Shown: positions 4,977 to 33,820 of the stretch, piece by piece | Position numbering within the stretch: the stretch's first letter is position 1 | How the letters are laid out: each line of letters starts with the position of its first letter | Assembly: GCA_017651315.1 (NCBI GenBank) | Contig: JAGCDE010000043.1 | Span: 1 to 34,191, forward strand | Origin: Bacteroidaceae bacterium | Lineage (GTDB): Bacteria; Bacteroidota; Bacteroidia; Bacteroidales; Bacteroidaceae | Reading direction: 5' to 3' | Length of the DNA: 34,191 bases | The notes under the pieces: generated by a model | Databases searched by the model: none | Told to the model about the DNA's origin: nothing | Seen by the model: only the letters and a program-made list of their open reading frames with translations | Made by a program: the position numbers and the translations under genes

Positions 4977-5437
4977 CAGAAGCAGAGAAACAACTGAAAT
5001 ACAATCAGCTGCTCAAGGAGGCGGCAGCACTGTTGGACGGCGAGAATGACACGATTGCCAATATGGCTAACCTCGCCGCTCTCATACACGAATCCATGGG
5101 GTTCTGGTGGACAGGATTCTACATAGTCCGCACAGACGCCAACGACACTGAACAACTGGTACTTGGACCATTCCAGGGTCCGATAGCCTGTACACGCATC
5201 GCATTCGGGCGTGGGGTCTGCGGCACATCATGGCAGCGCCGTGAGACAGTCATCGTCCCCGACGTGGAGCAGTTCCCCGGCCACATAGCCTGCAGCAGCC
5301 AGTCACGCAGCGAGATTGTGGTTCCCGTGTTCAAAGACGACGCAGTAACAGCAGTACTTGATATAGACAGCCAATATCTTAACACTTTCGACAAGACCGA
5401 TGCCCGCTATCTGGAGCGGATAGTACGGCTTCTTTAA
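4973..5437 (+). CDS. msrC: Free methionine-(R)-sulfoxide reductase (GAF domain)
   Basis: The 154-residue GAF-domain protein is a clear fRMsr (YebR/MsrC type). It reduces free L-methionine-R-sulfoxide in the cytoplasm, using thioredoxin to recycle its cysteines. Hallmark blocks are MGFWWTGFY, LVLGPFQGPIACTRI, GRGVCGTSW, VPDVEQFPGHIACSSQSRSEIVVPV and VLDIDS. The three redox cysteines expected for the family are present at 73, 83 and 107. The gene overlaps the preceding one by 4 bp and is followed after 6 bp by the MGMT-UDG fusion, so the operon groups oxidative-damage and DNA-base repair. Confidence 0.95.
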   Translation: MTEAEKQLKYNQLLKEAAALLDGENDTIANMANLAALIHESMGFWWTGFYIVRTDANDTEQLVLGPFQGPIACTRIAFGRGVCGTSWQRRETVIVPDVEQFPGHIACSSQSRSEIVVPVFKDDAVTAVLDIDSQYLNTFDKTDARYLERIVRLL

Positions 5438-5443
5438 CCGGCA

Positions 5444-6361
5444 ATGACATTCAAGGAAGCTGTATATAAGGCGGTGGGACTGATACCCGAAGGACGTGTT
5501 GCCACTTACGGACAGGTTGCGCAGATGGCAGGATGGCCGGCCGGAGCCTCCCGTGCAGTGGGAAACGCCATACACACCAATACCGATCCCGTTAAGGTAC
5601 CCTGTCACCGTGTGGTATGCGCTGACGGGAGCATGGGTTCCAATTTCGGACGAGGCGGACCAGATGTACAACGCCAGATTCTGGAGTCCGAAGGTATTGT
5701 CTTTAAAGGTGACAAGGTGGACCTGGAACGCTGTGGCATGATGATAGAGGAACATCCTTTGCAACCCTTCCTGCCCAGGAATGCACGGATTCTGTTTCTG
5801 GGCAGTTTCCCTCCTCCCCAAACACGCTGGTCCATGCGTTTCTTCTACCCGAACTGGATAAACGATTTCTGGCGCATACAGGGGCTGATCCATTTTGATG
5901 ACCCACACCGCTTTGAGGTCCAGGGTGCAAAACGGTTTGACCGTTCACGGATAATGGAGTTCTGTAACAGCCAAGGCCTGGCATTCTATGACACAGCAAG
6001 CAAGGTGTGCCGTCTGAAGGGCAATGCCAGTGACGAGTTCCTGCTTATCCTGGAACCCGCCGATATCCCCTGCATAATGGAACAGATACCACTCTGCCGC
6101 ACTGTCGTGACCACAGGCGGCAAGTCATCGGAAGAGTTCCTGAACATCCTGCATTCACTTGAATCAGCAGGGCAAACCGACACCTCAGCTCCTGAAAGTG
6201 TACCCCAGCCCGGCGCAAAGGCAAACATCATCCTGTCTGACCGCCAGATAGACTGGTGGCGCATGCCTTCCACCTCACGCGCCTACCCCATGTCTCTACA
6301 AAGAAAAGCCGATGCCTACCGCCGGTTGTTTTCAGACAGACCAAACTGCTTAAGACTATAA
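5444..6361 (+). CDS. Fusion: O6-alkylguanine-DNA alkyltransferase domain + uracil-DNA glycosylase-like domain
   Basis: Residues 1-95 form the DNA-binding and active-site domain of MGMT/Ogt: GRVATYGQVAQMAG, SRAVGNA and PCHRVV with acceptor Cys54 intact (so not an alkyltransferase-like protein with Trp). Residues ~108-305 have the uracil-DNA glycosylase superfamily fold: ILFLGSFPPPQTRWSMRFFY at motif 1, LAFYDTASKVCRLKGNASD, TVVTTGGKSSEEF, and RMPSTSRAYP at the position of the HPSxR-type motif 2. The protein would transfer alkyl groups from O6-guanine and probably excise or bind a deaminated base. The junction is short and in frame with no stop. It is the last gene of a three-gene operon and ends just before a hairpin terminator. 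The UDG substrate cannot be told from sequence. Confidence 0.88.
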   Translation: MTFKEAVYKAVGLIPEGRVATYGQVAQMAGWPAGASRAVGNAIHTNTDPVKVPCHRVVCADGSMGSNFGRGGPDVQRQILESEGIVFKGDKVDLERCGMMIEEHPLQPFLPRNARILFLGSFPPPQTRWSMRFFYPNWINDFWRIQGLIHFDDPHRFEVQGAKRFDRSRIMEFCNSQGLAFYDTASKVCRLKGNASDEFLLILEPADIPCIMEQIPLCRTVVTTGGKSSEEFLNILHSLESAGQTDTSAPESVPQPGAKANIILSDRQIDWWRMPSTSRAYPMSLQRKADAYRRLFSDRPNCLRL

Positions 6362-6387
6362 AAGGCATGCGAAAAACCGCATGCCTT
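6362..6387. terminator. Bidirectional hairpin terminator between convergent genes
   Basis: AAGGCATGCG (6362-6371), loop AAAAAC, CGCATGCCTT (6378-6387): a perfect 10-bp stem. On the minus strand it is followed by TTTTATAG, so termination should be better for the serine operon than for the plus-strand operon. Confidence 0.8.
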
Positions 6388-6408
6388 CAACTATTCACGA
6401 TAATCAGT

Positions 6409-7656
6409 TCAATCAAGCGAATGTATCACCAGTCCCGAGCGGAGCTTGGGCTCGAACCAGGTGGTCTTGGGCGGCATGATGTTGCCTGTATCGGCTATAT
6501 CCATGAGCTGTTTCATGGAAACGGGATAGAGGGCAAGGGCCATCTTCATCTCACCGCTGTCAACACGGCGCTTGAGTTCGCCCAGACCGCGTATGCCGCC
6601 GACAAAGTCAATCCTCTTGTCGCGACGCAGGTCCTTGATGCCCAGCAGCTGGTCCAGAATCAGGTTCGAAGAGATTGTGACATCCAGAACACCGATGGGG
6701 TCGCTGTCATCGAATGTACCCTTCTTTGCGGTCAGCTTGTACCATTCGCCATCCAAATAGAGCGAGAATGTATGGAGTTCTGACGGCTTGAATATATCCC
6801 TACCCTTCTTCTCGACAGCAAAGTTCTGCTCCAAAGCCTTGAGGAACTGCTCCGATGTCATTCCGTTCAGGTCCCTGACAACGCGGTTATAGTCGATGAT
6901 GGTGAGCTGTGAAGCCGGGAAGCAGACAGCCATGAAGTAGTTGTACTCCTCATCACCGCGATGATTGGGATTGAGACGGGCCTTCTCGGCACCGACCAGG
7001 GCAGCGGCTGCTGAACGGTGGTGACCGTCGGAGATATAGAGTGAAGGAATACCGGCAAACCTCTCGGTTACGGTCTTGATATCCTCATCCTTGTCTATTA
7101 TCCAGAGCTGATGACGGAAACCGTCACCCTGAGCCACAAAATCGTACTCAGGAGCACCCTTGACGTACTTGGCTACAAGTTCGTCAAGAACCGCATCATC
7201 GGGATAGGCAAAGAACACCGGCTCAATGTTGGCGTTGTTTACGCGGACATGTTTCATGCGGTCCTCCTCCTTATCGGCACGGGTCAACTCATGTTTCTTG
7301 ATGTTGCCCTTGAGGTAGTCCTCCACGTATGCGCAAACCACCAGACCGTACTGGGTCTTGCCCTGCATAGTCTGTGCATAGATATAGTACTGCTCCTTGT
7401 CGTCACGCCTGAGCCAGCCCTTGTCCTGGAACTTACGGAAGTTCTCGGCAGCCTTGGCATATACGCGAGGATCGGTCTCCTCGGCTATGGGATCAAAATC
7501 AATCTCAGGCTTAATTATGTGGTAGAGGGACATCTCGTTGCCTGCTGCCTCGGCGCGTGCTTCCTCGGAGTTGAGCACATCGTACGGACGGCTCTGCACC
7601 TTCTCGACAAGCTCCTTGGGAGGACGGATTCCCTGGAATGGTTTTACGGTTGCCAT
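6409..7656 (-). CDS. DUF1015 family protein of the serine operon
   Basis: This 415-residue cytoplasmic protein is a full-length DUF1015 member. Visible blocks: IRPPKELVEKVQSRPYDVL (N-terminus), NEMSLYHIIKPEID, KHELTRADKEEDRMKHV at 121-137, FAYPDD, ISDGHHRSAAAALV at 208-221, FPASQLTIIDYNRVV, and the C-terminal YPVSMKQLMDIADTGNIMPPKT. It is the third gene after serC and serA. The biochemical function of DUF1015 is not established. The DGHHRS motif resembles the motif of ParB-fold proteins, a fold that also includes free-serine kinases (SerK/SbnI), which fits the serine operon. That link is my inference. Confidence 0.9.
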   Translation of the reverse strand: MATVKPFQGIRPPKELVEKVQSRPYDVLNSEEARAEAAGNEMSLYHIIKPEIDFDPIAEETDPRVYAKAAENFRKFQDKGWLRRDDKEQYYIYAQTMQGKTQYGLVVCAYVEDYLKGNIKKHELTRADKEEDRMKHVRVNNANIEPVFFAYPDDAVLDELVAKYVKGAPEYDFVAQGDGFRHQLWIIDKDEDIKTVTERFAGIPSLYISDGHHRSAAAALVGAEKARLNPNHRGDEEYNYFMAVCFPASQLTIIDYNRVVRDLNGMTSEQFLKALEQNFAVEKKGRDIFKPSELHTFSLYLDGEWYKLTAKKGTFDDSDPIGVLDVTISSNLILDQLLGIKDLRRDKRIDFVGGIRGLGELKRRVDSGEMKMALALYPVSMKQLMDIADTGNIMPPKTTWFEPKLRSGLVIHSLD

Positions 7657-7673
7657 ATCCTTAAACTTTTCGA

Positions 7674-7728
7674 CTTCGGCTGTTGGCTATAGCATTTTAG
7701 GCTGACAGCCAACAACCAACAGCCAAAG
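7674..7728 (-). repeat. Intercistronic inverted repeat between serA and DUF1015
   Basis: On the minus strand a 15-nt arm (rc of 7714-7728) pairs with rc of 7674-7688 using two G-U wobbles and no mismatch, with a 25-nt loop. It begins directly after the serA stop codon. There is no U-run after it, so it looks more like an mRNA-stability or attenuation hairpin than a terminator. Confidence 0.65.
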
Positions 7729-8649
7729 TTATCTGTTAACCATAAACTTGGTGCAACCCTCCTTGATGAAGCCCACAATCTGGTTTGCAGCGGCGATACC
7801 GGCATTGATATTGGCCTCGGCAGTCTGGGCACCCATCTTCTTGGGAGTAGCAAAGTAACGTCCTGCAAACAGCTCTTCGAACCTGGCGGCTGCGGCAGGT
7901 GCTATATCGGACACGAACTTGAGGTCTTCACGCTCCTGCATGAGCTGGATGAGCTCGTCCTCGTTGATAATCTCCTTACGGGCAGAGTTAACCAGAACCG
8001 CACCCTTCGGCATCAGGCTTACAAGCTTGCGGCCGATGGAGTTCTTAGTCTCATCGGTAGCAGGCAAGTGCAGTGAGACGAACTGACAGGTTTTGTACAT
8101 ATCCTCCACATTATCGACAGCGTGTACACCGGCAGCCTCGATAACCTCCTTGGGGCAGTAAGCATCGTACGCATAGACCTCCATGCCGAAGCCCTTGGCT
8201 ATGCGTGCCACATTACGGCCTACATTGCCGAAAGCATGGATACCCAATTTCTTGCCTAATAGCTCGATACCTGATGTGCCGTTGTAGAAGTTACGTACGG
8301 CGTAAACCATCAGACCGGCAACCAGCTCGGCAACTGCATTGGCGTTCTGGCCCGGAGTGTTCATGACGCATACTCCGTGTGCGGTGGCCGATGCCAGATC
8401 CACATTGTCATAACCTGCGCCGGCGCGAACCACAATCTTGAGCTGCTTTGCAGCATCGAACACTTCGGCGTCTATGATATCGCTGCGGATTATGATAGCG
8501 TCAACATCGGCGACGGCAGCAAGCAGAGCCGCCTTCTCTGTATATTTCTCAAGCAGTACAAGCTCATAGCCTGCACCCTCAATAACCTCACGGATTCCGT
8601 CAACAGCAACCTTAGCGAACGGCTTTGACGTAGCAACAAGTACCTTCAT
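7729..8649 (-). CDS. serA: D-3-phosphoglycerate dehydrogenase, short lysine-type
   Basis: The 306-residue enzyme oxidises 3-phosphoglycerate to 3-phosphohydroxypyruvate with NAD, the first step of serine synthesis. It has only the catalytic and Rossmann domains and no ACT or ASB regulatory domain. Seen motifs: RSDIID (Arg55), VVRAGAGYDNVDL, Rossmann AFGNVGRNVARIAKGF, VSLHLPATDETKN and VNSARKEIINE (Arg224). Where most family members have the catalytic His (TPHxGxxT) this protein has TPKKMGAQT (Lys270/271), as in the lysine subtype described for Entamoeba and Bacteroidetes PGDHs. The start is ATG 8649; the frame extends upstream only to a TTG. It lies 104 bp downstream of serC with a GC-rich hairpin in between. 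Confidence 0.93.
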   Translation of the reverse strand: MKVLVATSKPFAKVAVDGIREVIEGAGYELVLLEKYTEKAALLAAVADVDAIIIRSDIIDAEVFDAAKQLKIVVRAGAGYDNVDLASATAHGVCVMNTPGQNANAVAELVAGLMVYAVRNFYNGTSGIELLGKKLGIHAFGNVGRNVARIAKGFGMEVYAYDAYCPKEVIEAAGVHAVDNVEDMYKTCQFVSLHLPATDETKNSIGRKLVSLMPKGAVLVNSARKEIINEDELIQLMQEREDLKFVSDIAPAAAARFEELFAGRYFATPKKMGAQTAEANINAGIAAANQIVGFIKEGCTKFMVNR

Positions 8650-8753: not shown

Positions 8754-9818
8754 TCAATGATTAGCCTCGTATTCCTTCATGCAGGCAATCAGGGCGTCAA
8801 CACTCTCCATAGGCAGAGCGTTGTAGCAGGAAGCGCGGAAACCGCCAACCGAACGGTGTCCCTTGATGCCGACCATGCCCTTACCCTGGGCGAACTTCAG
8901 GAAATCCTCCTCCAGCTCCTTGTACTCAGGAGCCATCACCCAGCAGATGTTCATGTATGAGCGGTCCTCCTCTTTGGCGGTGCCTACGAACAGCTTGTTG
9001 CGGTCAATCTCGGTGTAGAGCTTGGCTGCGCGGGCTTCGGCACGCCTTGCCATCTCCTTCACACCACCCTGAGCCTTGAGCCAGCGGAGTGACTCCAGAG
9101 CCGAGTAGATAGTGAATGTGGGAGGAGTATTGAACATCGAACCATTATCTATGTGAGTCTGATAGTTCAGCATTGTGGGGATATAACGGTCCACATGACC
9201 GAGAGCATCATTCCTGACAATGACGAAAGCCATACCGGAAGGAGCCAGGTTCTTCTGTGCGCCGCCGTAGATGCAGTTGTACTTGCTGACATCGATGGGA
9301 CGTGAGAATATGTCCGATGACATGTCTGAGATCAATGGAACCGGGCTGTCCAGGTCCTTGCGGATCTCAGTACCATAAATCGTGTTGTTTGTCGTAAAAT
9401 GGAAATAGTCCGCATCGGCAGGGATGACAAAACCCTTGGGGATGTAGGTATAGGTCGATTCGGCCGATGAAGCCACCTCTACCACCTCACCGAAAGCCTT
9501 GGCCTCCTTCATGGCCTTCTTGGCCCAGACACCGGTGTTAAGGTAAGCCGCCTTCCTGTTGAGGAAGTTATAGGGAACGCGACAGAATTCCATGCTGGCA
9601 CCACCTGCCAGGAACAGTACCGAATAACCCTCGGGAACATCCAGAATCTCCTTAACCAAAGCCTCAGCCTCATCCACAACGGGCTTGAACTCTTTGGAAC
9701 GGTGGCTGATAGAGAGGATGGAAATGCCTGTGCCGGCAAAATCATAGACAGCCTGAGCTGATTTCTCAATCACTTCCTGCGGAAGAACAGCAGGACCTGC
9801 GCAAAAATTATGCTTCAT
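8754..9818 (-). CDS. serC: Phosphoserine aminotransferase
   Basis: The 354-residue PLP enzyme converts 3-phosphohydroxypyruvate and glutamate to phosphoserine and 2-oxoglutarate (serine route), and can also act in pyridoxal phosphate synthesis. Signature parts are [10 protein letters not shown] at the N-terminus, [52 protein letters not shown] and [12 protein letters not shown] with the PLP Lys189. The C-terminal [20 protein letters not shown] is the substrate-phosphate region. It is the first gene of serC-serA-DUF1015 and has a textbook Bacteroidetes promoter upstream. The length is typical. Confidence 0.97.
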
Positions 9819-9855
9819 GACGATGTTATTTGTTGTTGTTTTTTGATTCGTGCCG

Positions 9856-9887
9856 CAAAGGTACTCCCTTAATTCGGTCGGAACAAA
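9856..9887 (-). promoter_or_regulatory. Promoter of the serC-serA-DUF1015 operon
   Basis: Minus strand: TTTG (9884-9887), 20-nt spacer, TACCTTTG (9856-9863). Both boxes match the Bacteroidetes consensus exactly. The predicted transcript start is about 30 nt before the serC ATG. Confidence 0.8.
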
Positions 9888-9932
9888 TTATTTAAACATA
9901 AAAAATGATAAAGTTTTGAACAGTTTTCAATT

Positions 9933-10064
9933 ATTTTGCAAACAAAATCATTCCATATAATTACATTTTGCAAACAAATCAGATGTTTTGTGGACAATTA
10001 GTCATTTTTACAGACAAAAAGGAATGAATAACTGACAAAATGTAAGAATATGTCATTTTGCAAC
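9933..10064. repeat. Spaced direct repeats of ATTTTGCAAACAAA in the serC upstream region
   Basis: The ~260-bp gap 9888-10147 has no gene I can support. It is AT-rich and holds two identical 14-mers ATTTTGCAAACAAA at 9933-9946 and 9965-9978, exactly 32 bp (about three helical turns) apart, each with the palindrome TTTGCAAA. A third partial copy ATTTTGCAAC lies at 10055-10064, facing a CAAAATG inverted half-site near 10036. These could be binding sites for a regulator of serC or simply AT-rich drift. Confidence 0.55.
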
Positions 10065-10147
10065 ACTTTCTGCAGGTCACGCCCCTTTTTAACCGGCAAG
10101 GGAGCAATATCCGGAAACAAGGCCGCCATCCGACGGGAAAAGGAGAT

Positions 10148-12127
10148 TCATCTCACGTCGTACAGGCGGCAGGTCTTGAAAGCCACCTGGTTCACCCTCT
10201 TGGGAAGATTACCGACCACTCTCAAAGAACGGCAGTTGTAGAAGGCGTCATCATCCACCTTCTTCGTCTTTTTAGGCAGATAAAGCTCCACCAGATTCTC
10301 GCAGTCCGTAAACATGTTGGCCCCTATGGTATTGCTTTCGCTCAATTTGTAGAGTGCATAAACCCTTCCGTCACTCCCCCTGTCTAAAGTGCACCCTCCA
10401 AGTTCAAGGGCTCTCAACTCATGATTGATGATGTTCTGCCACTCCTCATCGGACACGTACGACAGGTCATAGACGTGTGACATCTTGCGTGAACCGACAT
10501 TCAGGAAACCGGAAAAGGAGATCCTGGCACTCTGCGGACTTATGGTAGCGTAATATTTACCCGCCTCGATTGTGGCATCCGACAGGTCCAGTTTCATGAG
10601 CGAACCGTATTCCACGGTATAATCATCCTTATACAGCGCCCCTGCCAAACGGCGCAACAGCTGTATGTCATCGCCGTCGATCGTCCCGCTCACTGTCAGT
10701 GAAGTTATCTTCATCATGTCGTACTTCTCAAGCAGTGCGGCCAGTGTACCTGGTTTAGAGACATTGACCGACACTTCAAGAGTCGATTCCAAAGGCTTGA
10801 CATCTATAAGGATTTCACTGAAAGGCAGCTGCCATTCGTCAATCGAAGGAATCACAATAGCACGGTAATAACCGTTACAGTAACCATTCCAGCCCAGATT
10901 CAGGTGCAGATAGTCATCATTGTAACCGTCGCACACGAAGATATGGTCATTGTCGGCTGAAATAACCGGACGGCCGGCATCAAGCTCCCTGTAAATCATG
11001 GTGAGCATCCCGGTATCATTATATTTCTCCACTCTCATGCACTGAGGGTCATACCCCCAGATAGCCACAAGAGCCGACTTGAAGTTGGAGAGGGAACTGG
11101 AAGTAGCCCATGGACTTATACTGGCCGACACGCTACCGGCACAGGCCATCATGAGCGAAGACAAGTCATCGTCACTACGGTTCCAGGAGAACGGATAGTC
11201 ACTCATCCTGACATTATAGTATCCGCCTGTCTGCTTGAAAAGCAGGGAACTTCCCACCGGGGCCTTGGGGCTGTGATAATAGCTCAGTACCTCGGCCAAC
11301 GCCACAGGACCGCAACCCACCAGGCTGCTGGTCAGAGTCCCGCCCCACTCCTCGGCAGGGAACTTGCTGTTGTATGGTGCATGCTGGTCATAACAGAAAT
11401 CCTCCAGCAGGGGCTTGACACCACCGGGCTTACGGGTGTATCCTTGCAATGAAAGCCCCTCATATACCGTGGAGTTTTCACGCAGGGCCTTGAGCTGACA
11501 GTCAAAACGGTTCATGATGTGATATATGGAATTATCCTGCATGACATCCACCCCGTTCCACATGGGATTACCTGTCCCATATGCCAGCACCGGATTGCCG
11601 ATATATGGCTCAAACTCCCGCGACGCCACTATTACAAAAGCCTTGATACTCTCGTCGGAGAATGATTTCAAGGTTTCAGTGGCATATTTGAGATAGAGCC
11701 GTCTCGCATCAATGCCTTGTCCGGACAGGAAATCATGCGCTATCTCCCACTCATGGCCAAAAGCCCTGTTCGGCTTCACATCTATGACAACGGTATCCGA
11801 ATAGACCGGCCTGTCGGCGACTTCAATCTTCATAGGCAATATCAGGAGTTCACCGCAGCCTTTCAGGGCATAAGTCACCTTGAGCACAAGGCTCCCCAAA
11901 GAGGAGCCGGTAACTCTTTCAAAACCCACCTGATCACCGCCGTCCATACGGGCATCGGCCGACGAATAGGAGTAACTGGAGGCATCAATGGAATAGAACA
12001 CATCAATACTGTCACCCTGATACATTTCGCCGTCAGGTATAGAGACCTCAAGCTTGGGATAAGCTTCCTGTGACAGGACTGGATATACCGAAACAGCAAA
12101 TAACAGGAGCGACAGGAGACGTTTCAT
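10148..12127 (-). CDS. Secreted C10 (streptopain-like) cysteine protease with BatD-like N-terminus and LRR C-terminus
   Basis: The 659-residue protein begins with a Sec signal (MKRLLSLLLFAVSVYPVLSQ). Residues ~24-118 resemble the BatD Ig-like region (YPKLEVSIPDGEMYQGDSI ... LLILPMKIEVADRPVYSDTV). Residues ~165-445 are a peptidase C10 domain with catalytic Cys272 in VGCGPVALAEVLSYY, His395 in SADNDHIFVCDGY and the LHLNLGWNG block. The C-terminal ~110 residues carry BspA-type LRR units (GANMFTDCENLVELYLP, DDAFYNCRSLRVV). C10 proteases such as SpeB, interpain and BfpA-type enzymes are secreted and degrade host proteins. A propeptide may lie between the first two parts. It follows the NhaC gene with a 12-bp gap, so the two are likely cotranscribed. 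Confidence 0.88.
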   Translation of the reverse strand: MKRLLSLLLFAVSVYPVLSQEAYPKLEVSIPDGEMYQGDSIDVFYSIDASSYSYSSADARMDGGDQVGFERVTGSSLGSLVLKVTYALKGCGELLILPMKIEVADRPVYSDTVVIDVKPNRAFGHEWEIAHDFLSGQGIDARRLYLKYATETLKSFSDESIKAFVIVASREFEPYIGNPVLAYGTGNPMWNGVDVMQDNSIYHIMNRFDCQLKALRENSTVYEGLSLQGYTRKPGGVKPLLEDFCYDQHAPYNSKFPAEEWGGTLTSSLVGCGPVALAEVLSYYHSPKAPVGSSLLFKQTGGYYNVRMSDYPFSWNRSDDDLSSLMMACAGSVSASISPWATSSSLSNFKSALVAIWGYDPQCMRVEKYNDTGMLTMIYRELDAGRPVISADNDHIFVCDGYNDDYLHLNLGWNGYCNGYYRAIVIPSIDEWQLPFSEILIDVKPLESTLEVSVNVSKPGTLAALLEKYDMMKITSLTVSGTIDGDDIQLLRRLAGALYKDDYTVEYGSLMKLDLSDATIEAGKYYATISPQSARISFSGFLNVGSRKMSHVYDLSYVSDEEWQNIINHELRALELGGCTLDRGSDGRVYALYKLSESNTIGANMFTDCENLVELYLPKKTKKVDDDAFYNCRSLRVVGNLPKRVNQVAFKTCRLYDVR

Positions 12128-12139
12128 AGGAATAATCGG

Positions 12140-13444
12140 TTATTTACGTGAAAAAACAATTGAACAGACAGCGCATAACCCCATAAGGAACGGATAATAC
12201 AGATACGGAATTATCGATGACGACGATATGGAGGCAAGTCCGGCTGCCATGAGCAGCTGGGCACCGTACGGAATCAGGCTTTGGACAAGGCAGGAGAACG
12301 TGTCCATGAGACTGGCAGTCTTCCTCGCGGAGACACCGAACTTCCGGGCAACGTCATGAGCGATACGCCCGGTTGTTATTATGGCAATGGTGTTGTTAGC
12401 GGTACATACATTGGCCAGGCTTACAAGACATGCGATTGCAGCCTGCGCTCCTCTTTTTCCGCCGATATGCCTGGTGAGCGTATTGATGATAAGGTCCAGC
12501 CCGCCTCCCCTGCGTATCATCTCGAGCAGTCCTCCGGCCAGCAGGGTCACTATAATCAGGTCGCTCATGCCTGCAATCCCCTCGCCCGCCGATTTCATCC
12601 ATCCTGTCCATCCGTAGCTCCCTGTCAGGAATCCTATCACCGCATTGGTCACGACTCCGACGGTCAGCACGAGAGTCACATCAAGCCTGAGCAGTGCCAG
12701 CACTATCACAAGCATATAGGGAAGCACGAGCAGAGGGTTGGCATGCGTGATGTCGCCGTTGAAACCGACTTCACGCCCCATAACCATGTAAATCACAGTC
12801 ACAACCACGAATGCCGGCATTACTATGAGAAGGTTTGCCTTGAACTTGTCAGCCATATCACAACCTGCCGCCTGGGTTGCAGCTATAGTCGTGTCCGATA
12901 TGAACGACAGGTTATCACCGAAAAAGGCGCCGCCCACTATGACAGCGGCCATGAAGGGTTGCGAAAGGCCGCACTGTCCGGCTATTCCGGCCCCGATAGG
13001 CACCAAAGCCACGATAGTCCCGACACTGGTTCCCATAGCCATAGAGATCAGGCACGCGGTAACAAACAGCCCGGCCAGAATGATACCCGGAGGAATAATC
13101 CCGAGCATGAGCGATACGGTGGCATCGACCGAACCGATAGCCTTGGCAGTGCCTGCGAAAGCTCCGGCAAGCATGAAAATCCAGATCATGAGCATAATAT
13201 CCGGATTACCTGCACCCTTGGAGAAAGCACGGACCCGCTCAGCCAGCGGCCCACCGGCCACAGCGACCGCATAAACGCATGCTATCAGGAAAGCCGATGA
13301 AACCGGAACAGCATAGAAATCATCGGCAATAACTGAAGAAAGCACATAAACCAGCAGGAACACCAGCAGCGGAGTAAGAGACAGGAATCCTCTCACTCCT
13401 CCACTGCCAGACTTGCGGGCATCCGTATTTCCGGAACCTTCCAT
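12140..13444 (-). CDS. NhaC-family Na+/H+ antiporter
   Basis: The 434-residue polytopic inner-membrane protein belongs to the NhaC ion transporter superfamily. It shows around ten to twelve hydrophobic segments and the diagnostic block AVIVGGAFFGDNLSFISDTTIAAT at 167-190, preceded by MAMGTSVGTIVALVPIG. NhaC proteins exchange Na+ for H+, or in some cases move organic acids or amino acids with Na+. The exact substrate is not predictable. It is first in a two-gene unit with the C10 protease and has a TACCTTTG box at 13473-13480. Confidence 0.9.
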   Translation of the reverse strand: MEGSGNTDARKSGSGGVRGFLSLTPLLVFLLVYVLSSVIADDFYAVPVSSAFLIACVYAVAVAGGPLAERVRAFSKGAGNPDIMLMIWIFMLAGAFAGTAKAIGSVDATVSLMLGIIPPGIILAGLFVTACLISMAMGTSVGTIVALVPIGAGIAGQCGLSQPFMAAVIVGGAFFGDNLSFISDTTIAATQAAGCDMADKFKANLLIVMPAFVVVTVIYMVMGREVGFNGDITHANPLLVLPYMLVIVLALLRLDVTLVLTVGVVTNAVIGFLTGSYGWTGWMKSAGEGIAGMSDLIIVTLLAGGLLEMIRRGGGLDLIINTLTRHIGGKRGAQAAIACLVSLANVCTANNTIAIITTGRIAHDVARKFGVSARKTASLMDTFSCLVQSLIPYGAQLLMAAGLASISSSSIIPYLYYPFLMGLCAVCSIVFSRK

Positions 13445-21945: not shown

Positions 21946-21972
21946 GGCACAGGGAAACGATACTTCTGTGTC
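21946..21972. repeat. Copy 2 of the dispersed 27-bp palindromic repeat
   Basis: GGCACAGGGAAACGATACTT followed by CTGTGTC. It touches the 3' end of the frameshifted gene at 21971. The copy at 22724-22750 lies at the other end of the same gene. Confidence 0.65.
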
Positions 21973-22674
21973 ACAAACGTGTCACTTTCTTGCCGTTCAC
22001 GTAAACATTCTTGAGGCTGTCTATTGTAACGCCGGGGAGTTTCCGGATAATATCATCAGCAGTTGTACCTTCGGGCAGACGGAAAGCCTCCGGATTGAAT
22101 TCGGGGCCACAATCAAGATGTATTTCTGATGCCTGAATTTCAATAAGCAATGATATCATCTTTTCTACAGTAAGGTCACTTTCCTTAAGTTTGATTTCAA
22201 ATTGCTTCTGGTCTTTGCTGACCTGGGGCTCGGTCACACTTTCATCAACAATGAATGAAAAGTAATAATCATCATCAGCAAAATCAGACAGGGCATAAAT
22301 CTTGTGTGCAACCTGCCGGATGGTGCTTTCATATTTTTCAAGTATGAAGATGTCATAACCGTATGTTTGGCCAACAGCTTTAGAGAATTATACAATTCCG
22401 GGCTACACTTTACACTATACTCTTTCCCTTGTTGCGAAGTTACCTTTATTATACCCTGATTCATCACCAATGATTCCAGGATGGATGGTGATATAATCAT
22501 ATCAGAAGGCATGATAAGGTTTACATCGGCAGATTGGGTGTAATATTTGTCAATATACTTGCCCCAATAATCATAATGAGACCTGGTATTTGGTGAAAAC
22601 AGATTCTGGGCACCGGCATTCAGGCTTGTCAGGGCCATTATCAGCAAGAGGCTCAATAGGTTAATCTTTTTCAT
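21971..22674 (-). pseudogene. Frameshifted secreted protein gene
   Basis: The first part (22674 to about 22380) encodes a signal peptide MKKINLLSLLLIMALTSLNAGAQ and a domain ending KCSPELYNSLK. From there the sequence continues in another frame: AVGQTYGYDIFILEKYE, KIYALSDFADDDYYFSFIVDE, then KQFEIKLKESDLTVEKM, and TADDIIRKLPGVTIDSLKNV. Adding one A to the A-run at 22379-22381 (TTT on the plus strand) joins both into a single 234-residue protein. The end resembles the plug-like 'DDIIRKLPGV...VNGKKVTRL' segment found in Bacteroidetes outer-membrane proteins, but no barrel follows. Function unknown. A recent mutation, assembly error or slippage at the A-run could explain it. Confidence 0.72.
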
Positions 22675-26120: not shown

Positions 26121-26153
26121 AAAAAGAGGCCGCACGGCAAATGCGACCTCTTT
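26121..26153 (-). terminator. Rho-independent terminator of the BlaI-M56 operon
   Basis: Minus-strand stem of 12 pairs (one G-U): AAAGAGGTCGCA, loop TTTGCCG, TGCGGCCTCTTT, followed by a T-run. It lies 20 bp after the coupled 42-codon ORF. Confidence 0.85.
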
Positions 26154-26172
26154 CATATAAGAATCATATATT

Positions 26173-26301
26173 TCAGAATCTGTTCAAATTCGTTCCATGA
26201 AGATGATTTCCTTCAGTAAAACAGCTATAACTATACCAAGAATAATCACTCTTTGGGATAATCTCATCAATAGTACTATTGTTAAACAGATTCTCAATCA
26301 T
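26173..26301 (-). CDS. Coupled 42-residue ORF at the end of the operon
   Basis: ATG at 26301 overlaps the stop of the YD-repeat gene (ATGATTGA arrangement) and the frame encodes 42 residues (MIENLFNNSTIDEIIPKSDY, then SWYSYSCF, ending GTNLNRF). It ends 20 bp before the terminator. It resembles no family I know. The overlap and position make translation plausible, but it is short and could be a chance frame or the frameshifted tail of the YD-repeat protein. Confidence 0.4.
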   Translation of the reverse strand: MIENLFNNSTIDEIIPKSDYSWYSYSCFTEGNHLHGTNLNRF

Positions 26302-27643
26302 TGGCTATAACCTTGGAAATGATGAGGGGATGTCCTCCAAATGTATAATGCCCATTGCCATCGGATTCAAAGCCGGGTAATTGCTTCAGACTCTTCAGCA
26401 CGTCATCATCTATCTCTGACATCACTTCGCCCATGCTGAAACTCTGGATGTGAATTTCATGAGTCTGATTGTCCGGACTTGTGACTACGTGGATATACAT
26501 GGGTTTCAACTGAATATCCCGGAACGCGCCTGACTCATACCTTTCACCATCCCTGTAACAGAAACGGCGGTATTCAACTTGTTCGGGAACCAGAAAACCG
26601 TCTTCATCAACAATGAAGACACGCCTCCTCGTCCAGTTGCCGTGACTGTCATATCTGTAAGAGTCATATCCGGTAATCTCATTCTGTCCTTTCCGTATCT
26701 TGCTAACCAGAACGGGATCTCCCTGACTGTTGTATCTGCACTCGTAAACAGAGCCGTCAGGCAACACGGTTTTCTGCAGACAGTCCTTTGAATCATAGTA
26801 CTCAGTCTTACCCGTCCCGTCATTCAGGTACATTACCCGATAACTTCCATCCGGATTAAATGAATAATAGCGTTTCTCCCTCTTGAAATCAGATGTAAAA
26901 TCCGCGCCGACCCCAAACAGGATCCCATTGTCGATACGACCTTGAACAGACAAGTCTGGAGGCATGCCTATTTCGGTCCCAAGATAATTGTAGTATGACA
27001 TCACGACACTGTCAATCCTCCCGTTATGGCAATAGTAATCCGTTTGTTCCTTATGTCCTGTTGTCTTGTTTTCCAGCACCCTTGATTTGGGAGTTCCGTC
27101 ATCATTGTATTCATAAATAATGGTCTGACCTTGAGACAATATGCTATTATCCATTGTCGATTCCTGTACCGGTTTCCCATTCTGATACATGTAATCAGTC
27201 CAGTTGACAGGTTCCTCCCAAGGAACGCCATAGTCAAATCCCCTGTTATCAAAATGAAGTGCTTCGGACAAGACTGTATTGCGAGAAAACATACTACCGC
27301 CGGTTTCGTGGTCTATTCTACCGCTGATTTGTCTTATTGTATCTGATAATGAGAAAAAACCTCCGTGCGCACCGCCAATACCATGAAACATCGACCCGTA
27401 TGTGACGCTTTGAACAGGATTCCCTTCACTGTCCAACCGTACAGCGGTAAGTGATCTGGCGGGACCATCAATAACAGTATCACCGGAAAGCTTCAGTATA
27501 CCGTTGTTGTCCTTAACCAGAAAAACATTGTAAACTACTGTCTCGTATGATTCCACATCACCTTTCAGGTTCTGTGCACTAATGCCTGATGCAGCAACCA
27601 TACTTGCTGCCAACAACAAATATCTGTTTTTCATAAAACCCAT
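26294..27643 (-). CDS. Secreted YD-repeat-like protein of the BlaI-M56 operon
   Basis: The 449-residue protein has a signal peptide (MKNRYLLLAASMVAASGISAQ after a first MGF). Its body is built of Rhs/YD-type strand-turn units: IIYEYNDDGTPKSRVL, KTTGHKEQTDYYCHNGRIDSVVMSYYN, RYYSFNPDGSYRVMYLNDG, KTEYYDSKDCLQKTVLPDGSVYECRYNSQGDPVLV, and YDSYRYDSHGNWTRRR. It is probably a beta-rich exported protein; Rhs-like core residues for a toxin are not seen. It starts 2 nt after the stop of the M56 gene (ATG 27643; ATG 27634 is the alternative), so it is coupled to the protease gene and is a likely ligand, substrate or target of that system. The function is inferred. Confidence 0.75.
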   Translation of the reverse strand: MGFMKNRYLLLAASMVAASGISAQNLKGDVESYETVVYNVFLVKDNNGILKLSGDTVIDGPARSLTAVRLDSEGNPVQSVTYGSMFHGIGGAHGGFFSLSDTIRQISGRIDHETGGSMFSRNTVLSEALHFDNRGFDYGVPWEEPVNWTDYMYQNGKPVQESTMDNSILSQGQTIIYEYNDDGTPKSRVLENKTTGHKEQTDYYCHNGRIDSVVMSYYNYLGTEIGMPPDLSVQGRIDNGILFGVGADFTSDFKREKRYYSFNPDGSYRVMYLNDGTGKTEYYDSKDCLQKTVLPDGSVYECRYNSQGDPVLVSKIRKGQNEITGYDSYRYDSHGNWTRRRVFIVDEDGFLVPEQVEYRRFCYRDGERYESGAFRDIQLKPMYIHVVTSPDNQTHEIHIQSFSMGEVMSEIDDDVLKSLKQLPGFESDGNGHYTFGGHPLIISKVIAND

Positions 27644-27645
27644 TG

Positions 27646-29331
27646 TTAAAGTTGTTCAACATAGAATGCATTATCCCCAATCTCAGCCTTTAACCTGGAC
27701 GTATCAACCATCAAAGACCGGCAGTCATAGAACGCTCCGTTTCCTATATGCTTCAGTTTCCTGGGCAAGGAGACTGATGACAGGCGTACACATCGGTAGA
27801 AAGCCTCGTTTCCGATTCTTTCAAGTCTCTTAGGCAAATTGATGTCCTGTAAGTGACGGCAATCGGAAAAGGCGCCGTCACCGATATCACTAAGGGTGGA
27901 AGGAAGGTGTACTGATTCCAGGTTCCTGCAATTCATGAACATCCCCTGGGACAAAACTGTCAACCCGTTCTCAAAGAAAACCGTTTTCAGATTATTACAA
28001 TATGCGAACACACGGGCTTCCATAATACATACGGTTGATGGTATCGTGACACTCTCAAGCTGGTTACATCTGGAAAATGCCCCATCAGCAATCTCGGTTA
28101 TCCCCTCTGGTATTACAAGATCAGTGAAATGGGTACCACTCAACGACATTATCACTCTGACATCATAATCCTTGCCTTTAAAGGGTATGGAAGTGGGTAT
28201 GCTGTTTATCGAGTCAACCATACGCCAGTCACAACCGGTTATGACAGCCACTCCGTTAGAGATATTGAACTTGAGTCCCTGATAGTAAAAATCGCTGTCC
28301 GGATACTCGTACAGAATCCGTCGTATAGAAGGCATGCTTTCGATAGAAGGCATGCTTTCGCCTGTTGTCAAGACATAAGGAGCTTGCCGCCTGTCATAAA
28401 CCTTGTTCGATGTCAAACTTAATGAAACCACTATCAGGACAGGGAAATATACGAGTTTAAGCAATAGCGAACGGCTTGAACGGTTGCGGTTCATCATCCG
28501 GATTCTTGCACGGAGATTGCTCTCGCCCAAACCGTTCACTAAAGGGATGGAAATACCGCCTGCGGCTATGCTGAGCAGCGACCGCTCATATTCGGCACGG
28601 TCAATGCCAGATTCAAGGACGGAGGCATCGGCCTCAAACTCCTGGACACAGCACAAATCATGTCTGAGAAGCCAAACTGCGGGATTGAACCACTGGAATG
28701 CGGACAGAATGTCTGCTACAAGCAGTTCCAATGTGTGATGATGAGATATATGGGAGGATTCGTGTTGCACCACAGGCGATGTCCATGACACGCCGGCATA
28801 ACCCTCAGGAAGCACTATGTTTCTCATCCAGCTGAAAGGACGGATGTTATCCTTTGATATCACTATCCTGCATCCTTCTTTTTCCATTAACACCCGGCCG
28901 CTACGGATTATTCCAGTCACCTTGCGTACCGATATGAGTCGAAGGACAATCAGACTCACAACGCCTGTTGCATAAATGACAGTCGCTATCACTATCCAGT
29001 TTATCCGCTTCAGGTCTGTATCAGATGGAACTACTGCCTGTGACTGTACCTGTGGCTGTTGAGCGGGTGACTGAGCCTGATATCTTTCGGAAGCAGTTGT
29101 TGTCGCTGTTTGTGTAGGCACAGCCACAACATCTTTGCTGACAGATGCACTCATGGGCCTATGGACGGTTATTACACATAGCGGCAGAATGTATGAAATA
29201 AACAGTGACACAACAAGGACTATACGTGCTGTCCTATGGAATGTGTCACGTCTGAGGAGCAGATGATACAACAGCACAAGAACTGCCGTAAGCAAAGCCA
29301 CCTTTAGTATATATATAAGGAACGCGCTCAT
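27646..29331 (-). CDS. M56 (BlaR1-like) membrane metalloprotease fused to BspA-type LRR domain
   Basis: The 561-residue protein is a membrane-embedded M56 peptidase: hydrophobic spans near 3-25, 33-56, 110-133 and 290-306, with HESSH (190-194, the HExxH zinc site) and EFEADASVL (Glu231/233, third ligand region) in the cytosolic part. After the last span, residues ~330-561 are tandem BspA/LRR_5 repeats (VIPEGITEIADGAFSRCNQL, VTIPSTVCIMEARVFAYC, and three or more further units). BlaR1-like proteins normally have a penicillin-binding or carboxypeptidase-like sensor there. So this one may sense a protein or peptide ligand outside the membrane, cleave its BlaI-type repressor and start gene expression. 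The gene overlaps blaI-like gene by 4 bp (TGAATG-type) and is followed at 2 nt by the YD-repeat gene. Confidence 0.9.
   Translation of the reverse strand: MSAFLIYILKVALLTAVLVLLYHLLLRRDTFHRTARIVLVVSLFISYILPLCVITVHRPMSASVSKDVVAVPTQTATTTASERYQAQSPAQQPQVQSQAVVPSDTDLKRINWIVIATVIYATGVVSLIVLRLISVRKVTGIIRSGRVLMEKEGCRIVISKDNIRPFSWMRNIVLPEGYAGVSWTSPVVQHESSHISHHHTLELLVADILSAFQWFNPAVWLLRHDLCCVQEFEADASVLESGIDRAEYERSLLSIAAGGISIPLVNGLGESNLRARIRMMNRNRSSRSLLLKLVYFPVLIVVSLSLTSNKVYDRRQAPYVLTTGESMPSIESMPSIRRILYEYPDSDFYYQGLKFNISNGVAVITGCDWRMVDSINSIPTSIPFKGKDYDVRVIMSLSGTHFTDLVIPEGITEIADGAFSRCNQLESVTIPSTVCIMEARVFAYCNNLKTVFFENGLTVLSQGMFMNCRNLESVHLPSTLSDIGDGAFSDCRHLQDINLPKRLERIGNEAFYRCVRLSSVSLPRKLKHIGNGAFYDCRSLMVDTSRLKAEIGDNAFYVEQL
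28325..28360. repeat. In-frame 18-bp tandem duplication in the M56 gene
   Basis: ATAGAAGGCATGCTTTCG is repeated twice without spacing and in frame (encoding ESMPSI twice on the minus strand) between the last membrane span and the LRR domain, where the length of a linker can vary freely. Confidence 0.9.
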
Positions 29332-29693
29332 GACTTATTCTCCTGTCTGATTTCATTTATTATCTTCTCCAGTTCCTCAACCGAGAGTTTCTCGTCCCTG
29401 ATGAATGACATGACAACACTTGAGTATGAACTGCTGAAGAACTCCTCCACGATGCCGCTTATGCCGGACTTGCTGTACTCCTCCCTGCCGACAACAGGAA
29501 AATACTGGTAGTTGGTGCCATACGCCTTGTGGCTCATGAAGCCGTCGGCCTGAAGAGTACGCACCTGGTTGGAAAGTGTACCGAACGAGGGTTTGGGATC
29601 AGGATAATGATCCTGTAACTCGCGGATAAACATAGGCCCATAGGTCCAATAGTAGTCCATAATGACTCTCTCTTTCTTGGTTAATCTTCGCAT
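29328..29693 (-). CDS. BlaI/MecI-family transcriptional repressor
   Basis: The 121-residue protein has the family winged helix (RLTKKERVIMDYYWTYGPMFIRELQDHYPDPKPSFGTLSNQVRTLQADGFMSHKAYGTNYQYFPVV) and a C-terminal dimer helix (VEELEKIINEIRQ). BlaI/MecI proteins repress their operon until the partner M56 protease cleaves them. It is the first gene of the operon and overlaps the M56 gene by 4 bp. There is a -7 box at 29735-29742. Confidence 0.92.
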   Translation of the reverse strand: MRRLTKKERVIMDYYWTYGPMFIRELQDHYPDPKPSFGTLSNQVRTLQADGFMSHKAYGTNYQYFPVVGREEYSKSGISGIVEEFFSSSYSSVVMSFIRDEKLSVEELEKIINEIRQENKS

Positions 29694-29734
29694 AATTATC
29701 TCATTTTTACTATTACAACGAATAAAATTCTCTG

Positions 29735-29742
29735 CAAAGATA
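29735..29742 (-). promoter_or_regulatory. Promoter of the BlaI-M56 operon
   Basis: TATCTTTG on the minus strand with a weak -33 (ATTG, 19 nt upstream). No clear TACA/TGTA-type BlaI dyad is obvious next to it. Confidence 0.5.
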
Positions 29743-29793
29743 AATAAATATTTTCATTCAACAATTTTTTTTCGCTGATTTTTCACTCAGGCC

Positions 29794-30081
29794 CGGAGTG
29801 ACATTTTTTCTACCTAAACTATCGCAATGTCAGAAAATATTTTTTTCCTTGCACTGGACAGCCAAAATCGTTTCCATATGGCAGACAAAGAGAAGATTAT
29901 CGACCAAGTGACATTCACGCCCGACACCGTCCAAGGCATTCTTCCAAAAGAGTTTGCTTTGGAATTAGTGCGCCGCTATAAAAATGTCATTGCTTCTCGT
30001 TTTGATCCTGCCATGAAGGTCATGATGTTCGGTTCATATGCAAAAGACTGTCCTAACGAGTGGAGTGAAAAACGAGGTTAA
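29794..30081 (+). pseudogene. Collapsed HEPN-MNT copy with truncated nucleotidyltransferase
   Basis: From 29794 the DNA parallels the intact locus at 32988: the same leader (CGGAGTGAC ... TACCTAAACTATCGCAAT) and the same first codons of HEPN (ATG 29878, MADKEKI). It then jumps to the second gene (ATCGACC...ACATTC, encoding TFTPDTVQGILPKEF). The join sits at a short shared A/T run (AAGATT/ATCGAC), so the whole HEPN body was deleted. The MNT part keeps MMFGSYAKDCPNEWS but diverges just before the DxD catalytic pair and stops after 67 residues. The product would lack the catalytic acids. This copy cannot encode a working pair. Confidence 0.88.
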
Positions 30082-32995: not shown

Positions 32996-33095
32996 CTTTT
33001 TTTCTACCTAAACTATCGCAATTTCAGAAAAAAGTGTTATCCTTGCACCGTACAGCCAATATCGTTACTATATGATGGCAGACAAAGAGAAGATT
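32988..33095 (+). repeat. Leader of intact HEPN-MNT, repeated in the collapsed copy
   Basis: This ~105-bp stretch (CGGAGTGAC ... to the first codons of HEPN) is repeated with a few changes at 29794-29897. The first bases form the stop of the PLD fragment. It contains TATCCTTG (33031-33038 region), one mismatch from the -7 box, as a possible promoter. Confidence 0.8.
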
Positions 33096-33488
33096 AAGAG
33101 ATGGCTCTCTATCGTAGATGAGGACCTAAGTGTAGCCGATGACCTTTATAAGACAGGTCACTGGTTATATGTTGGCTTCATGTGCCATCAGGTCATAGAA
33201 AAGACTCTCAAGGCCTACTGGTGCGTCTGCCGAGACGATGACCCACCCTATCTGCACGATCATGATAGAATAGCTAAAGGATGTGGACTTTACACTAAAA
33301 TGAGTGAAGAGCAAAAAGACTTCCTCCAAGGTATCCGCGATCTGAACATCGAGGCACGCTATCAAGATGCCAAAGATGCAGCTTCACGTAAACTCAACAG
33401 CGATAACACCGCAAAAATATTAGAAACAACCAAACATCTTCACGAATGGATACTGAAAAGAATAACAGAAAAACTATCGACCCGATGA
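33072..33488 (+). CDS. HEPN-domain protein of a HEPN-MNT toxin-antitoxin pair
   Basis: The 138-residue helical protein (GHWLYVGFMCHQVIEKTLKAYWCVCRDDDPPYLHDHDRIAKGCGL ... LRDLNIEARYQDAKDA-like) belongs to the HEPN family that precedes an MNT nucleotidyltransferase. HEPN proteins of such pairs are usually the toxic ribonuclease; this one has the IEARYQDAK motif of the HEPN-MNT branch, and an obvious Rx4-6H motif is not seen. The MNT partner may neutralise it by adding nucleotides. The genes overlap as ATGA. Confidence 0.88.
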   Translation: MMADKEKIKRWLSIVDEDLSVADDLYKTGHWLYVGFMCHQVIEKTLKAYWCVCRDDDPPYLHDHDRIAKGCGLYTKMSEEQKDFLQGIRDLNIEARYQDAKDAASRKLNSDNTAKILETTKHLHEWILKRITEKLSTR

Positions 33489-33820
33489 CATTCACCTCTG
33501 ACACCGTCCAAGGCATTCTCCCCAAAGAGTTTGCCATAGAGTTAGTGCGTCGCTACAAGGAAGTCATTGCACCTCTTTTTGACAAAAAGATGATAGTTAT
33601 GATGTTTGGTTCCTACGCAAAAGATTGCCCTAACGAATGGAGTGATATAGATGTGGCTATTATCGTTCCAAAGGTCAATAAAGACAATTGGTGGGATACA
33701 GCTGTATCACTTGGTCGCGCCAAAGAAAACATCAGTTGCTACATAGAACCCATCCTCTTAGAGAGCGGCGAGGACTCTCCCATCTACCGTGAAGTTATGC
33801 GCACCGGCATAGCTGTTTAA
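33485..33820 (+). CDS. MNT-type minimal nucleotidyltransferase of the HEPN-MNT pair
   Basis: The 111-residue protein starts at ATG 33485, which overlaps the HEPN stop by 4 bp. An upstream ATG at 33446 gives a 13-residue extension overlapping HEPN by 43 bp, so the shorter start is preferred. The minimal nucleotidyltransferase motif is complete: FGSYAKDCPNEWSDIDVAII with Gly42-Ser43 and Asp54/Asp56, followed by ISCYIEPILLE near the third acid. Such proteins are antitoxins that modify HEPN. The truncated paralog at 29878-30081 lost the aspartates. Confidence 0.9.
   Translation: MTFTSDTVQGILPKEFAIELVRRYKEVIAPLFDKKMIVMMFGSYAKDCPNEWSDIDVAIIVPKVNKDNWWDTAVSLGRAKENISCYIEPILLESGEDSPIYREVMRTGIAV

Follow-up and report, generated by a model that had tools for sequence, protein, structure and literature searches.

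Systems that pair a BlaI-type repressor with an M56 membrane protease are known mainly for beta-lactam resistance, and what most of them sense is, to our knowledge, open. What could such a system sense when its protease ends in a BspA-type leucine-rich repeat (LRR) domain, and is that domain a fixed part of the switch? The question is raised by an operon of a rumen bacterium of the family Bacteroidaceae, which lies in a 34,191-bp stretch of contig JAGCDE010000043.1 (the whole stretch analysed is hereafter called the window). According to the open reading frame (ORF) list of the window, three minus-strand genes run head to tail from 29693 to 26294 and encode a BlaI/MecI-type repressor, an M56 protease with an LRR ectodomain (M56-LRR), and a partner with weak YD/RHS-like repeats. 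We think it fairly likely that this operon is a BlaI/BlaR1-type proteolytic switch in which a BspA-type LRR domain has taken the place of the periplasmic sensor, and in which the ectodomain and the partner gene form an exchangeable cassette on a constant core.

An M56 protease with an LRR ectodomain is coupled to a BlaI repressor

Gene content, catalytic motifs, twin operator, autoregulatory layout, the linkage of LRR and YD, and sensor exchange among relatives were all established by computation. Coordinates and bases revealed that the BlaI and M56 ORFs overlap by 4 bp and that a gap of 2 bp separates M56 from the YD gene. The repressor matches Pfam Penicillinase_R (PF03965; E 2e-20, 73.6 bits against a cut-off of 22.6) over model positions 1-114 of 115. 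The M56-LRR protein consists of a transmembrane (TM) and protease core (about residues 1-311), which matches Peptidase_M56 over residues 12-279 (E 2.6e-13), and an ectodomain (about residues 312-561) that matches LRR_5 (E 1.5e-47), with its best stretch at residues 399-514. The motifs H190ExxH (190-194) and E231xxxD (231-235) are invariant in 16/16 aligned M56 cores and hydrophobic segments are present, as in a multi-TM gluzincin core. A profile built from these 16 cores aligned to solved BlaR1 (8exp and kin) at positions 2-315 (E 5e-12), spanning both motifs, which are H201EXXH and E242XXXD in BlaR1 according to PMC9834060. The repressor aligned with MecI in the PDB across the cut-site region, where its S96-F97 coincides with the N101-F102 site at which BlaI is cut; cleavage is predicted from this alignment, and at P1' 10 of the 13 aligned repressors have Phe and 3 have Leu.

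These data largely bear out the preliminary description of the locus, which had reported the usual M56 zinc site, a BspA-type LRR domain on the protease, and tight coupling with a BlaI repressor and a secreted YD-repeat protein; the coupling and the BlaI assignment stand, and the YD label proved weak, as it falls under the curated cut-offs. The same description had suggested a system that senses a protein or surface ligand and is not tied to beta-lactams, and family searches indeed found no beta-lactam sensor domain in the M56 protein and no resistance family or such sensor domain in any of the three operon proteins. The penicillin-binding sensor domain of BlaR1/MecR1 was likewise absent by the NCBIfam BlaR1 models, which gave 25.3 of 400 and 18.1 of 1200 bits, far under their cut-offs. 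A role in the response to beta-lactams or other antibiotics was rejected on these grounds, and a defence system was rejected because the PADLOC models gave 0 families for each of the three proteins.

The genome of the window holds 10 M56 and 10 BlaI matches, and every M56 of the 10 adjoins a BlaI. Across 37 genomes of the genus, 216 M56 and 234 BlaI matches were counted in the summed tables, and the same two genomes lacked both; a match in 37/37 genus genomes was also obtained, but with a query that includes the LRR part.

The trio of genes is conserved within one genus

In 4/4 loci with a short LRR ectodomain, namely the window, a paralog in the same genome, and one locus each in two other species (genomes G006 and G024), the three genes recur in frame and in unchanged order. 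The fusion of LRR and M56 is therefore real, and the concern that the two parts would prove to be separate genes in relatives was not realized; the conserved YD partner that had been expected is likewise present behind M56 in all four. The paralog is 72% identical to the window in BlaI, 44% in the M56 core, 54% in the LRR and 41% in YD, and the loci of the other two species are 84 and 88% identical in BlaI and 64% in YD.

The LRR and YD version had been envisaged across Bacteroidales, but in samples of the family and the order it was found in one genus only. Full-length matches to the YD profile (E 1e-10) occur only at the four trio loci, that is, in 3/37 genus and 3/399 family genomes, and at E 1e-15 the single match among 393 order genomes is the window's own; at most 4 candidates per genome were scored in the family and order YD scans and in the family scan for the close chassis. 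Weaker, partial YD-like matches (E 1.6e-10 to 6e-6) are present in 5 other genus genomes. The close chassis was detected at E 1e-60 in 11/301 family genomes, all within the genus, and so looks genus-bound. The genome of the window holds many LRR stretches, and the idea that the ectodomain duplicates a secreted LRR protein in tethered form was rejected, because matches of at least 100 residues in the assembled genome, besides the paralog (55%), are 29-38% identical.

Near-identical cores carry unrelated ectodomains

On near-identical BlaI/M56 halves sit unrelated ectodomains; the change falls at the last membrane helix and extends to the adjoining gene. Comparison of L051 (G006, LRR and YD) with L053 (G027, RHS-like) revealed 1,429 bp in common at 95.9%, from 5' of BlaI to M56 codon 311, which is the end of the last hydrophobic segment; beyond it the ectodomains and partners are unrelated, and a 192-bp block after the partner gene is again common at 85%. 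Between L053 and L054, the RHS-like ectodomain is 98.3% identical over 421 residues and the core 82%, and divergence follows. Measured in 90-bp steps, L053 is 93-100% identical to L051 up to about +670 and 89-91% on to +850, and it is 99-100% identical to L054 from about +675 to +2025 (one step 93%) and 67-89% before that. L053 is clearly a mosaic of L051 and L054 with the changeover in the protease core.

Both L051 and L053 belong to a first group of related operons, chassis 1 (L051-L064), in whose 14 loci BlaI is 83-89% identical to that of the window. A second group, chassis 2, behaves likewise, with ectodomains of 311-320 and 744-783 residues, and its L116 and L070 diverge at codon 320. 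Core identity is 80% or more in 77 pairs, of which 31 (4 in chassis 1 and 27 in chassis 2) were without BLAST similarity in the ectodomain. The reverse case, a core below 85% with an ectodomain of at least 95%, was met in 9 pairs. On a core tree of 34 rows the short-LRR type needs 3 changes and the mid-length type 5, with starred branches forcing at least two each, and the approximately unbiased (AU) test rejects placing the mid-length LRR rows in a single clade (p 2e-6), and likewise the four short-LRR rows (p 0.029). There is about an even chance that these operons make up a genus-specific receptor-swapping family, in which cassettes (LRR and YD, LRR and esterase, RHS-like, or Lcl_C/Big_2), each bringing a sensor of its own and often an output as well, would have been exchanged between loci and species on a constant BlaI/operator/M56 chassis by recombination near or inside the core.

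Downstream partners differ among the relatives. The mid-LRR operons L067-L069 have a gene within 8 bp downstream, which in L069 matches CBM_48 and esterase families and whose product there resembles feruloyl-esterase-type plant-fibre enzymes; L066 and L070 have a gene of 195/196 aa in the partner position.

Some frames in chassis 1 are irregular. Past the M56 stop codon of L055 and L058, what looks like ectodomain sequence seems to run on in another frame, and in L063 BlaI and M56 read as a single ORF; assembly error, decay or variation may account for these frames.

A predicted twin operator flanks the BlaI promoter

The BlaI promoter lies between two imperfect dyads 43 bp apart, which are kept in 14 related loci. 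The dyads common to these 14 related promoters, close to cAGCGAAAAAATTTTGCTGa and tAGCGAAAATATTTCGCTaa, lie around a Bacteroidales-type -7 box, the consensus of which we take to be TAnnTTTG. An operator matrix was trained on 14 other loci, with the window and the paralog held out, and was scanned over the full length of the window; it placed the two halves, O1 and O2, where Table 1 lists them, and scored 22.9 and 11.3 at the held-out paralog. The spacing of O1 and O2 is 43 bp in 13/14 training loci, 44 in one, and 43 in the held-out window and paralog. O2 is identified by its position and by this spacing more than by its score. A dyad operator at its own promoter, as expected of a BlaI/MecI repressor, is predicted from this constant spacing in the 14 loci and the two held out, and the window copies are degenerate.

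A pattern of the O1 type with up to 3 mismatches was found at two places in the assembled genome, the promoters of the window operon and of the paralog, and the control gave 0. Since the upstream dyad is present only there, BlaI probably regulates just its own operon; with an assembly that is 83% complete, further targets could have escaped detection. A wider regulon was rejected: of 39 pattern rows in the 37 genomes, 27 are located at BlaI promoters of chassis 1 or at the paralog and the remaining 12 at other places, with 6 for the reversed-pattern control. Half of those 12 come from a single site, which lies between convergent genes, recurs in three species and is more terminator-like. The pattern used for the 37 genomes misses the window's own degenerate sites. 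The chassis-2 promoters L066, L068, L069 and L070 have a different dyad, close to ATCAAAA-N3-TTTTGAT, which suggests that repressor and operator change together.

L111 (G036:C20, 5404-5951) has the look of a degraded chassis, which retains BlaI together with two operator-like sites spaced by 42 bp and in which the M56 ORF is cut to 59 aa.

The partner protein has weak YD/RHS-like repeats

The match of the partner to RHS_repeat (E 0.006, 17.5 bits) is below the cut-off of 22 and that to YD_repeat_2x (E 0.17, 12.5 bits) below 15.8, so that it belongs formally to neither family; five Yxxx(x)G motifs are present, and the YD profile gave a single match in the PDB, at E 0.63. The partner and the RHS-like ectodomain of L053/L054 share a local similarity of 62 columns (pairwise E 4e-5, probability 69), and when 11 other ectodomains were compared, one (L049) also scored (P 5e-4). 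An alignment of three partner proteins is conserved to near the C-terminus, and a polymorphic RHS toxin was rejected, as no variable C-terminus was seen among the three and no toxin family was found.

By eye, the C-terminus of YD (26294-26430, minus strand) and a small ORF at 21971-22237 (minus strand) have a plug-like LPG...G motif in common. A local match is also present in the M56 ectodomain of L049 (L049 6015-7661; 1 of 11 compared).

Proposed mechanism and alternative explanations

The ligand, the direction of signalling, the binding and cleavage of BlaI and the role of YD can be proposed by analogy with BlaR1/BlaI. A BlaI dimer on the twin dyads O1/O2 would keep the operon off. The LRR ectodomain, lying beyond the last TM helix and outside the inner membrane, would detect a protein or surface ligand, as its fold class suggests, and the YD partner may itself be involved in detection. 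The signal would open the cytosolic M56 site and BlaI would be cut near S96/F97, whereupon BlaI, M56-LRR and the YD protein would be induced together. Recombination near or inside the conserved core would exchange the ectodomain along with the adjoining partner gene.

However, it should be noted that several observations weigh against such a switch with exchangeable cassettes. Counted from HExxH, BlaR1 Asp210 corresponds to His199, a departure that is also invariant. The O2 score of 11.4 barely exceeds that of an unrelated site at 9798 (11.1), where training sites score at least 17, and comparison with shuffles shows that the window promoter, taken alone, is not unusually palindromic (23/200). 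When the paralog is left out, the AU test does not reject a clade of the other three short-LRR rows (p 0.26), and the long branch of the paralog row makes its position in the tree unsure. Four chassis-1 loci (L056, L060, L063 and L064) have no downstream partner under the rule applied (same strand, 250 bp, 90 aa), and a rule by which the sensor drives a secreted effector is therefore not universal. The loci compared contain 47 M56 proteins of more than 400 aa, of which 12 fall in the LRR ectodomain cluster and only the four short-LRR ones have a YD partner behind them, but the 47 were chosen with the window protein as query and are not a random sample. Two of the relatives are metagenome-assembled genomes (MAGs) and the genomes are draft, so that an individual mosaic could be a chimera made in assembly.

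On the technical side, chimerism of this kind is the chief rival. The ectodomain switches would then be misjoined sequences of related rumen species, and the window would hold an ordinary BlaI/M56 pair with an odd C-terminus; besides the draft state of the genomes, the changeover of L053 lies in a conserved core, where misjoins are expected. L053, however, leaves L054 and later rejoins a 3' block like that of L051/L052, switches occur in 31/77 pairs and in two chassis groups, and the short LRR is in frame at four loci of three species, all of which makes this explanation very improbable. The partnerless loci bear on another possibility, as M56 may be their sole regulated product besides BlaI: the operon could serve, under its own control, to display or release the ectodomain as its main product. 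The LRR anchored by M56, like other ectodomains, would then act or be shed as a surface or periplasmic binding protein, and the protease would limit its own level via BlaI. The BlaR1 sensor of S. aureus is cut by signal peptidase, as stated in PMC9834060. In addition, the ectodomain resembles the product of the gene downstream in 14/51 pairs, 12 of the 14 in chassis 2, and in L126 (G031:C14) a separate LRR protein, encoded two genes downstream of M56 (9726-13001), matches the 1181-aa LRR ectodomain of M56 (3614-8170) with 52% identity over 1131 aa. The partner in the window is, by contrast, unlike the ectodomain, and the assembled genome holds no close LRR copy but the paralog; we judge display or release to be unlikely. 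It is rather improbable that the ectodomain serves envelope surveillance, monitoring the folding or transit of secreted repeat proteins, with YD as a chaperone-like or stress-relieving product and neither ligand nor effector. The ectodomain families LRR_5, Lcl_C and Big_2 and the weak RHS likeness would agree with it, as these families are typical of secreted or surface proteins, and so would the many LRR stretches of the genome; but the partners vary greatly (YD protein, CBM48/esterase, small proteins), which is better suited to specific cassettes than to general stress relief.

Relation to known systems

The operon is a variant of the BlaI/M56 systems. Like BlaR1/BlaI and MecR1/MecI of S. 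aureus and B. licheniformis, it combines a repressor with an M56 membrane protease that has an N-terminal TM/protease core and a C-terminal extracytoplasmic part, with HExxH/ExxxD motifs and Phe at the predicted BlaI P1' position. It differs from them in an LRR ectodomain in place of the penicillin-binding domain, in the YD-like partner, and in an operon without beta-lactamase or PBP2a; moreover, BlaI/MecI operators are of the TACA/TGTA type, whereas the operator half here is AGCGAAA. The M56 proteins of the same genome that end in TonB_C (L045 and L046) belong to the same protease family and each lie beside a BlaI, but their ectodomains are of TonB_C type (with OmpH-like and CarboxypepD_reg-like parts in L046) and their cores are 28-30% identical to that of the window. 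The window ectodomain is a standard member of the BspA-type LRR_5 proteins (PDB 4fs7, 4gt6 and others), here fused to M56. To YD/RHS-repeat proteins the partner has weak repeat similarity, and it is short.

No precedent was found for the LRR ectodomain or for the exchange: no description of M56-LRR proteins or of sensor exchange was found among the literature matches listed by title and start of abstract, in a coverage that leaves out most subscription papers, and nothing was found there on a BspA-type leucine-rich domain combined with M56. A constant switch with naturally exchanged sensors, a common operator and adjoining outputs makes the question of what is sensed testable, and would, if the reading is true, give uncultured rumen bacteria a naturally modular platform for sensing.

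Features of the locus and neighbouring sequences

Table 1. Coordinates of the operon genes, predicted regulatory sites and likely terminator in the window
Feature	Position	Strand	Basis or remark
BlaI/MecI-type repressor, 121 aa	29328..29693	-	Penicillinase_R; MecI match in PDB
M56 protease with BspA-type LRR ectodomain, 561 aa	27646..29331	-	Pfam, motifs, core alignment
Partner, 449 aa, weak YD/RHS-like repeats, signal-peptide-like N-terminus (by eye)	26294..27643	-	
Predicted operator half O1, AGCGAAAAAAAATTGTT	29760..29776	-	Upstream of -7 box; matrix score 17.8, best of whole window
Predicted operator half O2, AGAGAATTTTATTCGTT	29717..29733	-	Directly after -7 box, 43 bp from O1; score 11.4, second best of window
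Bacteroidales-type -7 box, TATCTTTGC	29734..29742	-	Between O1 and O2; read from sequence
Hairpin and T run, likely operon terminator	26123..26153	-	Read from sequence

At the downstream end, a 42-codon ORF (26173-26301) had been listed as a further member of the operon. It overlaps the YD stop codon, has no family and no convincing homologue (best foreign tblastn E 0.28 among the loci compared), and DNA similarity to the nearest relative stops at about the YD stop codon; it was rejected as a gene for these reasons. A hairpin similar to that in Table 1 lies 3' of the operon in L051 and L052, and the window hairpin is absent from the pattern-scan output.

Upstream of the BlaI promoter, an 84-aa ORF (29827-30081, plus strand) reads like a truncated copy of a nucleotidyltransferase-like ORF at 33446-33820 (plus strand). 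The latter adjoins a HEPN-like ORF at 33072-33488, both names being given by reading and not by family search.

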